Positions 1 to 5,088 of a stretch of 5,088 nucleotides of DNA are shown piece after piece; the stretch's first letter is position 1; every line of letters begins with the position of its first letter. Made by a program: the position numbers and the translations under genes. The notes beneath the pieces were generated by a model. It made no database searches and was not told the DNA's origin. It was given only the letters and a program-made list of their open reading frames with translations. The DNA comes from Candidatus Zhuqueibacterota bacterium (GTDB lineage Bacteria > SM23-31). The stretch is taken from positions 1-5,088 of the forward strand of contig JADFON010000184.1 of the NCBI GenBank assembly GCA_022562855.1, read 5' to 3'.

Positions 1-836
1 ACCTCGATGTTTGCAGAAAATGCAAGACGGTCGATTGTTTTCGCGGGAATGGATCGGGCTATGCGTGTCCAACCGGGATGAATCTGAAAACCATGAATAC
101 CAACACCTATTGCATCATGTGCGCCGAATGTTTTCGAACCTGCAAATATGATAACGTTGCGCTCAATATCCGCCCGTTTTCTCATGATCTGATGACAAAC
201 CCGAAACCGAGATTGGATGAAGCTTTTTTTGCGCTTACGTTATTCGCCCTTACCGCATTTCACGGTTTGACGATGACGCCGGTCTGGCGTTTGATGACCG
301 GTACGGTCAAAGATATAACGGGCGCAGGTGAGATAACCGCCTTCTCCATAGCTATGGCGGTGTGTATCGTGATTCCGGTACTGGTGTTTTACCTTTTTTC
401 CCGGGTCTCCTATTTCATGGCGGGGTCATCCGGTGCAAATTTCCGCAGCATGTTTATAAAGTATTCCTACAGTGTCATACCCATAGCGTTGTTCTACCAT
501 GTAGCTCATAACTTTGAGCATTTCGTTGTCGAAAGTCAAAAACTCATCGTATTGATATCCGACCCGTTTGGCTTCGGCTGGAATATTTTCGGTACGGCGG
601 ATGTTCAGACAGCCTCTCTGTTCCCGGTCGGAACAATATGGTTTACGCAGGTATTCATGATCGTTATCGGGCACGTATTCGGAATATACATCTCACACCG
701 CTATTCGTACCAAATGTTCAAAGACCGGAAATCGGCAATAAAAAGCCAAATCCCGATGATCGTAATGATGATCCTCTTTTCCATACTGAGCCTCTGGCTC
801 ATCGCCCAACCCATGGAAATGCGCACCGCAATGTAA
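1..836 (+). CDS. Membrane-bound 2x[4Fe-4S] polyferredoxin-type protein, C-terminal part (5' end outside window)
   Basis: The frame is open from the left edge (first full codon at base 3), so the start lies upstream; 277 residues are visible. Visible residues 4-47 form a bacterial-type two-cluster ferredoxin domain: C4-x2-C7-x4-C12 with C22-P, then C37-x2-C40-x2-C43-x3-C47. About five hydrophobic segments follow, near 72-93, 112-139, 151-168, 208-230 and 248-268. Several histidines lie in or beside these helices (H87, H166, H169, H173, H224, H232) and could bind haem b or a quinone; that is inference. The layout recalls the NapH/NosR/CcoG superfamily of membrane electron-transfer proteins, where cytoplasmic clusters exchange electrons with the membrane. 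The missing N-terminus may hold more helices or clusters. The ATG at 78 lies between the two cysteine groups and would cut the ferredoxin fold, so it is not the start. The subfamily is not identified. Confidence 0.85.
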   Translation, partial: LDVCRKCKTVDCFRGNGSGYACPTGMNLKTMNTNTYCIMCAECFRTCKYDNVALNIRPFSHDLMTNPKPRLDEAFFALTLFALTAFHGLTMTPVWRLMTGTVKDITGAGEITAFSIAMAVCIVIPVLVFYLFSRVSYFMAGSSGANFRSMFIKYSYSVIPIALFYHVAHNFEHFVVESQKLIVLISDPFGFGWNIFGTADVQTASLFPVGTIWFTQVFMIVIGHVFGIYISHRYSYQMFKDRKSAIKSQIPMIVMMILFSILSLWLIAQPMEMRTAM

Positions 837-1278: not shown

Positions 1279-2190
1279 ATGAAACGCAAATTTGTCAAAA
1301 AAGCATTTTTTTTCTCATTAATTTTTCTTGTTTCAAATTGCGGCGGAAGCGGGTCGGACGTAAGTGAGTCGTTCCCTCCGCTCGATACAGCACAGATCGA
1401 AGCAATTACCGGGATACGCGGAACGGAAAACAATGGGGAATATAAGATCGCCGTTGCGCAGAATGATCTGAACGTTTCCGTCGACGGTTTCAGGATAATC
1501 CCCCCGATGGGTTTAACCTCATGGGCAGGATTTACACCCGCGCCGGAGGGGGCGATGGTCATGGGCGACTTGGTCGTTCTTGAAGATGAAATCGGACCGG
1601 TACAGGAAGTATTTATAAACAACGGCATGACCGTTACAGCGATTCATAATCATTTTATCCGGGACAACCCCAAAGTGATGTTTATGCATTTTCACGGTAT
1701 AGACCGGACCGAAAATCTCGCAAGTACCGTTAAAATGGGACTGGATAAAGTCCGCGAACTGCGCGCGGCAAAGGGTCTGACAGGAGAGCCTTCCACGGTT
1801 GAAACCACCTTTGATACCGATAAAATAAGCGCAATTCTCGGTCATTCGGGAGCGCTGAACGCCGGTGTTTACAAAATCACTGTCGGCAGACCGGATGTTT
1901 CTCTCACCGACCATGACATACCGGTCAGCACATTTATGGGATTCAACACATGGATGGCATTCCAGGGTTCGCCGCAAAACGCTGCGGTTGCCGGCGATTT
2001 TACCATGCTCGAGCACGAAGTAGCGCCGGTTATACAGGCGCTGGTTTCAAACGGCATTGAAGTGGTTGCCGTGCACAATCACATGACCACCGAATCCCCG
2101 CGGATCTTTTTCCTCCATTTCTGGGGTGTGGGACCGGCAGAGGATCTGGCGTACGGTCTCAAAGCGGGGCTGGACCAAATTGGAAACTAA
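1279..2190 (+). CDS. DUF1259 (LppY/LpqO-like) tandem-domain lipoprotein
   Basis: 303 residues. The N-terminus (MKRKFVKK, then a hydrophobic run to about residue 18) ends in LVSNC at 17-21. C21 followed by GGSGS looks like a lipobox with an unusual Asn at -1, so the protein is probably exported and lipid-anchored. Two homologous domains follow, about 33-155 and 178-300. Each has a G-x-Y-K-I strand, a G-D segment leading to an acidic stretch (LEDEIGPV at 101-108; LEHEVAPV at 244-251), a V-x-A-[IV]-H-N-H motif (H123/H125; H266/H268) and a following HFHG or HFWG (137-140; 280-283). The clustered histidines suggest a metal site, but the family has no established function that I know of. Two repeats per protein is normal for DUF1259. 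The gene has its own SD and a promoter-like region, and lies between two direct copies of a dispersed repeat, so it may be transcribed apart from its neighbours. Confidence 0.88.
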   Translation: MKRKFVKKAFFFSLIFLVSNCGGSGSDVSESFPPLDTAQIEAITGIRGTENNGEYKIAVAQNDLNVSVDGFRIIPPMGLTSWAGFTPAPEGAMVMGDLVVLEDEIGPVQEVFINNGMTVTAIHNHFIRDNPKVMFMHFHGIDRTENLASTVKMGLDKVRELRAAKGLTGEPSTVETTFDTDKISAILGHSGALNAGVYKITVGRPDVSLTDHDIPVSTFMGFNTWMAFQGSPQNAAVAGDFTMLEHEVAPVIQALVSNGIEVVAVHNHMTTESPRIFFLHFWGVGPAEDLAYGLKAGLDQIGN

Positions 2191-2364: not shown

Positions 2365-2406
2365 TTGAATATTTTTAACGGGTAACTTTGACAAGGAGAC
2401 GGACTA

Positions 2407-3633
2407 ATGTCCTTTAAAAATATATTCATATCTATATTTATCGGTACTTCGCTCATAATTTCCGCACTGATCATAAATTCGAAAAGACCCGAGGTTGAAA
2501 CTTCTCGGCCCACACCGGATTATGTCCGTGCATCAGGGAGGTGCGCGCAATGTCACCGGCAGGAAACATCCGCAATCGTGCACCAGTTTGAGCAAAGTAC
2601 ACATGCGGCAGAGGGTGTCAACTGTCTCGATTGCCACAAACCGCTTGAGGGTCAGACGCAGAACGACCATCGCGGTTTCTTAATTACGTCGACGGTAACA
2701 TCGAAAAATTGCACACAATGCCACCAGACGCAATATGACCAGTTTATTCGAAGCCGTCATGCCGCTCCTGCATGGGCTGCGGTTCGCGGAAGTCAGGATT
2801 TCACCGACGAACAGATAGACTTCGCCGAAACGTATCATAAAGGCGCCGTTGACCGTCCGGCAAATGCACTTGCTTTATTACAGGGCTCCAGTTCAATCGA
2901 ATCCGGTTGTCTGGCTTGTCACAGTATCGGAAAACCCAATGACGACGACTCCATCGGAGATTGTACCGCTTGCCACGCACGTCATTCAACGTCGATCTCC
3001 CTTGCGCGTGAGCCTGCAACGTGCGGGCAGTGCCATATGGGTCCCGACCATGCACAATTAGAGATATACAACGAATCGAAACACGGTGTACTGTTCAATG
3101 CGCAAAGGCAATTTATGAACCTGAATGCGCCGCCGAAAACCCTTAGCACCGCCGATATGCCGATTCCGACTTGTGCAACGTGCCATATGAGCGGTCTTGA
3201 GGGTCTGAAATTCACTCACGATGTAACCGAAAGGCTTTCCTACTGGCTGTTTGCGCCTGTTTCGGAGAAACGTCCCGGTTATGAGCGGGGAAAAAATGAA
3301 ATGAAGGAAGTCTGCCTGAAGTGCCATGCAAAACCGCATGTCGACGAGTTTTATACAAAAGCCGAAGCTGTGGTTCTTTCAACGAATGAAAAGGTAAAAG
3401 AAGCACAGAATCTAATGGCGGAGTTAAGGAGTGAAGGTCTCCTTACGCCCGAACCGTTCGACGAACACATCGAGTTTCTCTTCTTCGATTTCTGGCACTA
3501 TTTCGGTCGCACCGCGAAACACGGCGCCTACATGGGAGGAGCCGATTTTGTGCAATGGCACGGAAATTACGAATTGCTTTTGATGATGACCCAAATGAAA
3601 GAAATCGCAGAGCAGCTTCGAAAGAGACAATGA
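2407..3633 (+). CDS. Membrane-anchored octaheme c-type cytochrome, hydroxylamine oxidoreductase (HAO) family
   Basis: 408 residues, with AAGGAG at 2393-2398, eight bases before the ATG. Residues 5-24 form one hydrophobic segment without a clear cleavage site, probably an uncleaved anchor placing the haem domain in the periplasm. Eight CxxCH motifs have their His at 50, 77, 106, 172, 190, 210, 260 and 307; there is no CxxCK, which speaks against octaheme nitrite or tetrathionate reductases. Features typical of HAO-like proteins include SRHAAPAW (116-123), CTACHARH (186-193), CHMGPDH (209-215) with ESKHG (223-227), THDVTERLS (270-278) and a C-terminal GADFVQWHG (378-386). By analogy with HAO, haem 4 (168-172) would be the catalytic haem. 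The family oxidises hydroxylamine (HAO, anammox enzymes) or reduces nitrite/hydroxylamine (epsilon-Hao type). F381 may replace the Tyr that cross-links the P460 haem, favouring a reductive role; this needs an alignment. The next gene overlaps its stop. Confidence 0.9.
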   Translation: MSFKNIFISIFIGTSLIISALIINSKRPEVETSRPTPDYVRASGRCAQCHRQETSAIVHQFEQSTHAAEGVNCLDCHKPLEGQTQNDHRGFLITSTVTSKNCTQCHQTQYDQFIRSRHAAPAWAAVRGSQDFTDEQIDFAETYHKGAVDRPANALALLQGSSSIESGCLACHSIGKPNDDDSIGDCTACHARHSTSISLAREPATCGQCHMGPDHAQLEIYNESKHGVLFNAQRQFMNLNAPPKTLSTADMPIPTCATCHMSGLEGLKFTHDVTERLSYWLFAPVSEKRPGYERGKNEMKEVCLKCHAKPHVDEFYTKAEAVVLSTNEKVKEAQNLMAELRSEGLLTPEPFDEHIEFLFFDFWHYFGRTAKHGAYMGGADFVQWHGNYELLLMMTQMKEIAEQLRKRQ

Positions 3634-4463
3634 TGGAATTGAACCTCGATTGGTACCGGGACCGGGTTTTGCTCATTGAACTTTTTGTTCTTTCAAACAT
3701 GGCGTTTCTCGGTTTCGATATATACATTGCCCACTCTGCGAATATCCATTCGCGATGGACAGAGTGGATACCGATTTTCTTCTCATTCATTGCAACTATC
3801 GCGCTGGTGTATAAATTCTCTTTCAAGGATTCGGGTTTGAATCCTATCCGGCATACAACAGGAATGGTCGTGGGATGGCTTTCAATAGTAGTTGGGATAA
3901 CGGGGATGGTTCTTCACCTGCAGAGTCAGTTGTTCCAGGAATTCTCTATCAAAAGTCTCGTGTATACCGCCCCGTTCGTCGCGCCGCTCTCGTTCACGGG
4001 TGTCGGTCTGCTCCTGCTTATGAACAGAATGGTAAAACCCGGTTCTTATGAATGGAGCAAATGGGTAATTTTCCTATCTCTCGGCGGATTTTTTGGAAAT
4101 TTTATTCTTGCCCTGTGCGACCATGCCCAAAACGGGTTCTTTTCAATATCAGAGTGGATCCCGGTTTTCGGAAGCGCCATTGCGGTCGGTTTTCTGACGG
4201 TAACGTTATTTGAAAATACCACTATTTCTTTTCTGAAAATCTGTAAGTATATTATGCTCATTCAGATCGTTATCGGGTGTCTCGGTTTGTATTTTCATCT
4301 TACCGCAGATCAATTTGAAATCACGAGAAGTATAATGGACAGCCTTACTTATGGACCGCCGGTCTTTGCGCCGCTTCTTCTCCCGAATCTTGCCCTCTTA
4401 GCGTTAATCGGCTGCTGGGATTACACGATGAAGCTCGGCAATGAACAAACTCAGAAAATATGA
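3630..4463 (+). CDS. Eight-helix membrane protein with internal duplication, putative redox partner of the octaheme cytochrome
   Basis: 277 residues from the ATG at 3630, which overlaps the cytochrome stop by four bases (ATGA); the adjacent ATG at 3633 (276 residues) is equally possible. A weak purine SD (AAAGAGA, 3621-3627) inside the cytochrome gene fits translational coupling. Predicted helices lie near 11-33, 46-62, 77-97, 110-131, 145-166, 176-195, 205-224 and 239-262. The two halves are homologous: H35 then EWIP (45-48), H96-L, Y112-x-A-P-F-V-A-P-L; and H165 then EWIP (175-178), H223-L, Y241-x-P-P-V-F-A-P-L. In both halves the first His is ten residues before EWIP. Each half thus has two His at or near helix ends, which could bind b-type haem; this is inference. 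I do not recognise a named family. The coupling suggests it anchors the cytochrome or passes quinol electrons to it. It lacks CxxCH, so it is not a NapC/NrfH protein. Confidence 0.85.
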   Translation: MMELNLDWYRDRVLLIELFVLSNMAFLGFDIYIAHSANIHSRWTEWIPIFFSFIATIALVYKFSFKDSGLNPIRHTTGMVVGWLSIVVGITGMVLHLQSQLFQEFSIKSLVYTAPFVAPLSFTGVGLLLLMNRMVKPGSYEWSKWVIFLSLGGFFGNFILALCDHAQNGFFSISEWIPVFGSAIAVGFLTVTLFENTTISFLKICKYIMLIQIVIGCLGLYFHLTADQFEITRSIMDSLTYGPPVFAPLLLPNLALLALIGCWDYTMKLGNEQTQKI

Positions 4464-4551: not shown

Positions 4552-4555
4552 AAAA

Positions 4556-5088
4556 ATGACAATAAATAAAATCAGCCGCTTTGCTCTTATCTTTATGATT
4601 CTCGGCGCTGTAACATTGAGTACAAGTATTTCACAGACATTAGCTCAAACGGTAGTCACAGAAATACCGAATCCCGCCGGGGAAAACACCGAAGAAGCAA
4701 ATCTTTATGCGGACGATAATGGGAACGTCTACCTGACCTGGATAAAGAAAGGTGAGAAAAGGGTCAGTTCGCTCATGTTTTCAAAGTTTGAAGACGGTGA
4801 CTGGTCTTCTGCCCGGAAAATAGCGGAAGGGAACGACTGGTTCGTGAACTGGGCGGATTTTCCGTCATTGATTTCTACACCCGACGGCAAGTTTGCGGCT
4901 CATTGGCTGGCAAAAAGCGATGTCGGGACATACGCCTATGATGTCAATATCGCACGGTCCCTCGACGGTGGTAAAAGCTGGAGCGAACCTCTGCTTCCTC
5001 ATAGCGACGGCACCCCGACGGAACACGGTTTTGTTTCAATGCTCCCGTGGGATGATGAGAGTTTTTTTGCGATGTGGCTTGACGGCAG
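4556..5088 (+). CDS. Secreted Asp-box (BNR/sialidase-like) beta-propeller protein, N-terminal part (3' end outside window)
   Basis: 177 residues are visible and the frame is open at the right edge. Residues 1-30 are a signal peptide (Lys/Arg start, hydrophobic 9-22, likely cleavage after TLA at 28-30). The mature part alternates beta-strand segments with Gly/Asp turns. It carries an Asp-box, S135-L-D137-G-G139-K-S-W142, and Trp-rich segments such as YLTWIK (59-64) and AAHWLAK (114-120), which look like propeller blades. Asp-boxes mark sialidase-fold six-bladed propellers, but many such proteins are not sialidases. No catalytic Arg triad or Tyr/Glu pair can be judged from this fragment, so no substrate is assigned. 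It begins 92 bases after the membrane-protein stop on the same strand and may be co-transcribed, although its fold does not suggest a redox role. Confidence 0.8.
   Translation, partial: MTINKISRFALIFMILGAVTLSTSISQTLAQTVVTEIPNPAGENTEEANLYADDNGNVYLTWIKKGEKRVSSLMFSKFEDGDWSSARKIAEGNDWFVNWADFPSLISTPDGKFAAHWLAKSDVGTYAYDVNIARSLDGGKSWSEPLLPHSDGTPTEHGFVSMLPWDDESFFAMWLDG

Follow-up and report, generated by a model that had tools for sequence, protein, structure and literature searches.

The epsilon-Hao or reverse-HURM module of Nautilia and Campylobacter is formed by HaoA and a NapC/NrfH-type cM552, and it is thought to carry electrons from quinol to nitrite reduction (PMC3701875). The epsilon-Hao-like proteins have a Trp where the nitrifier HAO has the cross-link Tyr, and a Met eight residues earlier (PMC8940962). 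In Kuenenia, the R/b-3 complex (Kuste4569-4574) combines Rieske/cytochrome b with an HAO-like octahaem subunit (PMC12954380). NrfD-like subunits share eight helices, arranged as two repeats of four, and have a quinol site on the P side that His/Asn/Tyr residues line; ion translocation by the bundles has been proposed for NrfD, PsrC and MccD (PMC8076601). Onr-like octahaem cytochromes were noted in Phycisphaerae, and the available text of that report mentions the cytochrome without a membrane partner (PMC11266412).

The DNA analyzed here, called the window, is an entire contig of 5088 nt from a 2.5-Mb genome that is 80% complete, and a two-gene cassette was found within it. Like the epsilon-Hao module, the cassette encodes an HAO-family octahaem enzyme that lacks the cross-link Tyr. 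Unlike that module, in which the partner is a tetrahaem cytochrome c, the cassette has a translationally coupled, eight-helix partner with no haem c motif. The cassette resembles Kuenenia R/b-3 in that an HAO-like octahaem subunit would sit on a quinol-oxidising membrane module, the quinol role being a proposal for the cassette; it differs from this multi-subunit complex in having two genes and neither Rieske nor cytochrome b. MccACD likewise joins an octahaem enzyme to an eight-helix, two-repeat membrane protein (PMC8076601). However, MccD is of the NrfD family and works with the Fe-S protein MccC, whereas the cassette protein has neither an NrfD match nor an Fe-S partner. The Onr-like cytochromes of Phycisphaerae, as far as the available text describes them, likely belong to the same clade, and a UBA1845 genome carries the cassette (L096). 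The octahaem side is a known family, already noticed in Phycisphaerae in that text. The new part is the partner, an unnamed family of duplicated four-helix membrane proteins that stands one-to-one with one octahaem clade of apparently reductive kind in at least nine named phyla. A description of the pair was not found in the open-licence literature.

The octahaem cytochrome and its active-site signature

The ORF at 2407..3633 (+) encodes a membrane-anchored octahaem cytochrome c of the HAO family, with 408 aa and a PF13447 match at 1.3e-30. A ribosome-binding-site-like AAGGAG, read in the sequence at 2393..2398 (+), lies 8 nt 5' of the start codon. The N-terminal anchor helix (residues 3-26; 2413..2484, +) is a hydrophobic segment, is helical in the AlphaFold2 model and is kept in the homologues. 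The eight CxxCH motifs, all on the + strand and invariant in 51 aligned rows, are CAQCH (2542..2556), CLDCH (2623..2637), CTQCH (2710..2724), CLACH (2908..2922), CTACH (2962..2976), CGQCH (3022..3036), CATCH (3172..3186) and CLKCH (3313..3327) as haem c sites 1 to 8. Site 4 is the catalytic haem position in HAO. The Asp214-His215 pair (3046..3051, +), aligned with the Asp-His of the HAO GxDH, is kept in 51/51.

The best PDB relatives by sequence were Ignicoccus 4qo5 (1.4e-35) and Nitrosomonas HAO (1e-20). The closest solved relative is thus IhOCC from Ignicoccus hospitalis, an archaeal member of the HAO family. The HAO fold of the model was supported by Foldseek at E 5e-9 to 1e-6 versus 6h5l, 4qo5 and 1fgj; the AlphaFold2 model is of moderate quality (pLDDT 78.7), and the fold match is best in residues 206-408. 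The HAO fold also covers enzymes of sulfur compounds, and the sequence does not fix the substrate.

Oxidative HAO has a Tyr cross-linked to the catalytic haem. The cytochrome has Trp384 instead, at the position equated via the published signature (PMC8940962), and Met376 lies eight residues before it, as in the epsilon-Hao-like proteins (3532..3558, +). Each of the two residues was found in all 51 aligned members. The best reading from these residues is that the cytochrome is of the reductive, epsilon-Hao-like kind and would act as a nitrite, NO or hydroxylamine reductase. The Trp384/Met376 signature in 51/51 makes nitrite reduction the leading guess (PMC3701875). The opposite direction, in which hydroxylamine, NO or some other reductant would deliver electrons to the quinone pool, is considered very improbable. 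Redox partners can run both ways, the fold is that of HAO, and a haem A synthase encoded in the genome of the window suggests an aerobic oxidase. Against this direction, the Trp that takes the place of the cross-link Tyr throughout the alignment is linked to reductive enzymes (PMC8940962, PMC3701875).

Linkage, distribution and the partner slot

The stop of the cytochrome gene and the start of the membrane-protein gene overlap in ATGA at 3630..3633 (+). The first-pass annotation of this DNA had described an eight-CxxCH HAO-family cytochrome with an N-terminal anchor, overlapping the next gene by four bases, and both points were confirmed. When genome_contigs was searched with the membrane protein as the sole query, 119 relatives were found. 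An HAO gene with 60-76% identity was directly upstream in 80/80 loci retrieved from these, and the spacing is tight: 58 of the 80 loci overlap the HAO stop as in the window, 18 more lie within 10 nt, and the others are at 80 nt or less. The loci span Poribacteria, Planctomycetota, Zixiibacteriota, Neomarinimicrobiota, Acidobacteriota, Gemmatimonadota, Hydrogenedentota, Bacteroidota and Bdellovibrionota, at least nine named phyla with labels as in the records, which are mostly of metagenome-assembled genomes. Named strains with the cassette are Aquisphaera insulae JC669 and Planctomycetota strain ZRK32. The recurrence in 80/80 loci is far beyond chance.

The same linkage was seen from the cytochrome side. 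In a sample of 386 genomes, the membrane gene lies directly downstream of all five closest HAO relatives (44-67% identity), which come from different bacterial families, and HAO relatives at 43% identity or below are without it. In the phylum of G321, the membrane protein was found in 35/84 genomes, with the HAO gene directly upstream in 30/30 inspected loci. Across these 80 and 30 loci, no membrane homologue lacked its HAO neighbour; those that do are only far, un-duplicated four-helix relatives. A third conserved gene did not recur across phyla in the 80 loci, and the DUF1259 and BNR-repeat proteins that flank the cassette in the window were not conserved beside it there. Two copies of the cassette per assembly were observed at L111/L112 and L116/L150 (JADFPZ01, JADFMM01). 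A search for plasmid or phage homologues found none.

The spread of the pair over at least nine named phyla makes it probable that the membrane protein is an unrecognised device by which electrons enter the cytochrome. HAO-like genes often serve as metagenomic markers of nitrification or anammox. One whole HAO-like clade, in Poribacteria, Planctomycetota and others, has the reductive signature together with a fixed, unnamed partner. Inspection of the neighbour gene gives a simple recognition rule for the clade, and the cassette offers a defined pair of genes for experiments.

The tree of 49 HAO-like proteins groups the 16 that carry the eight-helix partner in a single clade (100/99). The sister lineages adjoin other partners, namely an NrfH-like tetrahaem protein (PF03264 at E 1.1e-30 in L178), a pentahaem protein, or Rieske/cytochrome b, as alternative occupants of the partner slot. 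The pentahaem protein has three helices, about 495 aa and weak NapC similarity, was found beside the HAO-like gene in L050, L170, L171, L173, L181 and L182, and may be another recurrent and little described partner type. Some HAO-like relatives in the tree are without an evident partner. An HAO-like protein in G291 (L183:4917-7106) carries, fused to its N-terminus, a helical membrane region and a segment that by eye resembles cytochrome b5. In G293, an ammonium transporter gene (PF00909, 3e-115) adjoins the HAO-like gene (L037:6445-10189).

PF03264, the profile of NapC/NrfH, was undetected in 16/20 cassette genomes, three of them single-contig, and these include the 80% complete genome of the window; the remaining 4/20 have one match each, partial or weak. 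A NapC/NrfH gene was absent beside the HAO gene at the cassettes. The missing PF03264 in 16/20 genomes supports replacement of NapC/NrfH, not addition to it. The first-pass annotation had proposed such a replacement within a quinone-linked hydroxylamine/nitrite redox complex. The replacement is supported by the linkage and the usual lack of NapC/NrfH, and neither of the two findings that the annotation had named as refuting it was made; the quinone, the complex and the substrate are kept here as proposals.

The linkage also bears on a maturation or accessory role, in which the membrane protein would insert or modify a cofactor, or pass NO, hydroxylamine or ammonia, and another donor such as a soluble cytochrome c would feed the cytochrome. 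Haem A synthase CtaA/COX15 has eight helices in two His-bearing four-helix halves, and the helix plan of the membrane protein recalls it. The strict one-to-one linkage fits a dedicated factor, and the ammonium transporter gene in G293 stands beside an HAO relative. However, CtaA has no profile relation to the membrane protein (hhalign 0.6 %), and the latter has no Pfam match. HAO relatives with other partners lack the eight-helix protein, which means that enzymes of this kind can mature without it. The alternative partners in the neighbouring lineages are quinone-linked redox proteins. A maturation or accessory role is regarded as improbable.

The duplicated membrane protein and its histidines

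The gene at 3630..4463 (+) encodes a membrane protein of 277 aa that starts at ATG 3630 or ATG 3633. A longer ORF from a start at 3555 is mechanically possible; the homologues favour 3630. The AlphaFold2 model contains eight long helices with mean pLDDT 91.6 and pTM 0.90. The two halves, a first unit of TM1-4 (3651..4031, +) and a second unit of TM5-8 (4041..4460, +), are homologous by hhalign (98.7 %, E 1.9e-16), and the protein therefore derives from a four-helix unit that was duplicated. It has no CxxCH. The earlier description, eight helices in the membrane and no haem c motif, stands and is made more precise by this duplication and by four invariant His.

The protein has no Pfam match, and no convincing family was found among 57 homologues. 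In particular, PF03264, whose NapC/NrfH members have tetra- or pentahaem c and one anchor, did not match. A ComEC assignment from NCBIfam (3e-4, 19 bits versus a cut-off of 969) was rejected as a low-scoring hydrophobic match, and Zip matches in Pfam were rejected as low-scoring and hydrophobic too.

The four His are invariant in 57/57 members: His35 at the end of TM1 (3732..3734, +), His96 at the end of TM3 (3915..3917, +), His165 at the end of TM5 (4122..4124, +) and His223 at the end of TM7 (4296..4298, +). His96 and His223 stand in GxxGxxxH, in which the GxxG spacing is invariant or nearly so. Each half thus has one His pair on its helices 1 and 3, with the GxxG ahead of the His on helix 3. 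Other invariant residues are N23, D30, Y112, D164, E175, G89, G92, G219 and several Pro and Trp. By the positive-inside rule, all four His are predicted on the non-cytoplasmic side. Helices 1 and 3 would face each other across the diagonal of an up-down four-helix bundle, which is how a bis-His haem b is usually held. A diagonal-helix His pair with Gly spacing, as in b-type cytochromes, is present in H35/H96 and in H165/H223, for which haem coordination is predicted.

The best structural match of the model was 3d19, a soluble tandem four-helix-bundle metalloprotein (Z 17.2, 236 residues, 3.5 A). It was clearly ahead of the next matches, which cover half of the membrane protein. Foldseek returned nothing below E 0.2 for the model, and structures of eight-helix cytochromes b, NrfD/PsrC or CtaA were not among the structural matches listed, an absence that does not count against a relation to them. 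The likeness of the model to 3d19 speaks to the overall tandem-bundle arrangement, not to the ligand.

Our best explanation, held at about even confidence, is that the two genes form one membrane complex, in which the eight-helix protein is the quinol-oxidising, probably haem b-bearing electron entry to the reductase. The octahaem cytochrome would be anchored by its one N-terminal helix and face the periplasm. Without the Tyr cross-link of oxidative HAO, it would reduce an inorganic N species, for example nitrite, hydroxylamine or NO. Its dedicated electron entry would be the eight-helix protein, made of two four-helix bundles with an invariant His pair each at the periplasmic face, and each bundle would most likely bind one haem b beside a quinol site. 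Quinol would be oxidised at the eight-helix protein, and the electrons would enter the octahaem wire, in place of NapC/NrfH. Because both proposed haems would lie on one side of the membrane, the eight-helix protein itself would not conserve energy, which was counted against the explanation.

The linkage, the usual lack of NapC/NrfH, the Met376/Trp384 signature, the duplication and the four His predicted on the non-cytoplasmic side count for this quinol-partner reading, as do the quinone-linked partners of the sister clades. The family context of the membrane protein was counted for it as well. In G171 (L084:1363-2821), two tandem four-helix genes that keep the His pair and GxxGxxxH are followed by a DOMON gene (PF03351, 6.6e-20); proteins of the DOMON family frequently bind haem and pair with cytochrome b561. 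The tandem genes are possibly the ancestral state of the membrane unit. G021 has a single un-duplicated four-helix relative, and in neither genome do the four-helix genes adjoin an HAO gene. In G178 (L036:687-2699), the eight-helix protein and NnrS, a family linked to NO, are encoded in one ORF 3' of the HAO gene; the PF05940 match (1.4e-32) is limited to the C-terminal part, residues 289-663, and the eight-helix part is unmatched. This fusion was seen once only, which counts against the reading. NnrS was rejected as a general companion, being found in 1/14 cassette genomes, with a weak match in G366 below the cut-off. A 711-aa ORF in L149 was rejected as a second fusion, since it is in a different reading frame and the real gene stops normally.

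Two points were counted against haem b. Instead of haem, the four invariant His may ligate a different metal or form part of a site for quinone or protons. The top match of the model is a soluble metalloprotein and no known cytochrome b. The main rival is a haem-free, NrfD-like mode, in which quinol would bind on the P side and reduce the closest haem c directly, and ions may be moved across the membrane by the bundles. The membrane protein shares the overall plan of two four-helix repeats and has the invariant N23, H35 and Y112, and MccACD pairs an NrfD-like subunit with an octahaem enzyme (PMC8076601). However, PF03916 or another NrfD match was absent in 57 members at E 0.1, and hhalign versus E. 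coli NrfD gave 0.5 %. NrfD proteins work together with an Fe-S subunit, and the 80 loci show no such gene conserved next to the cassette. One quinone site also does not explain His pairs in both halves. The haem-free mode is considered unlikely.

If the partner is a quinol dehydrogenase, it would represent a new wiring of multihaem reductases to the respiratory chain and point to a nitrite, NO or hydroxylamine sink in many uncultured bacteria. We tentatively propose, with somewhat less than even confidence, that the protein founds a class of quinol:cytochrome c reductase of its own, in which a quinol dehydrogenase made of a duplicated four-helix unit would hold two haems b, face the periplasm and serve a single reductive octahaem clade in many marine and soil phyla mostly without NapC/NrfH.

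Other features of the window

A scan for promoters and terminators gave counts not above those of shuffles. The 5'-truncated ORF at 3-836 (+) contains the Cys clusters CRKCKTVDC and CIMCAECFRTC and about six hydrophobic helices, has no Pfam match and resembles the C-terminal portion of an Fe-S membrane protein. It is followed at 1279-2190 (+) by a lipoprotein-like protein with two PF07485 (DUF1259) domains (2.2e-81). The start of a secreted BNR/sialidase-like repeat protein with weak Pfam matches is present at 4553-5086 (+). Two intergenic stretches with similar flanks, at 1010-1025 and 2268-2283, share the exact 16-nt repeat CGACGTGGCAATCTCC, which looks like a dispersed repeat.
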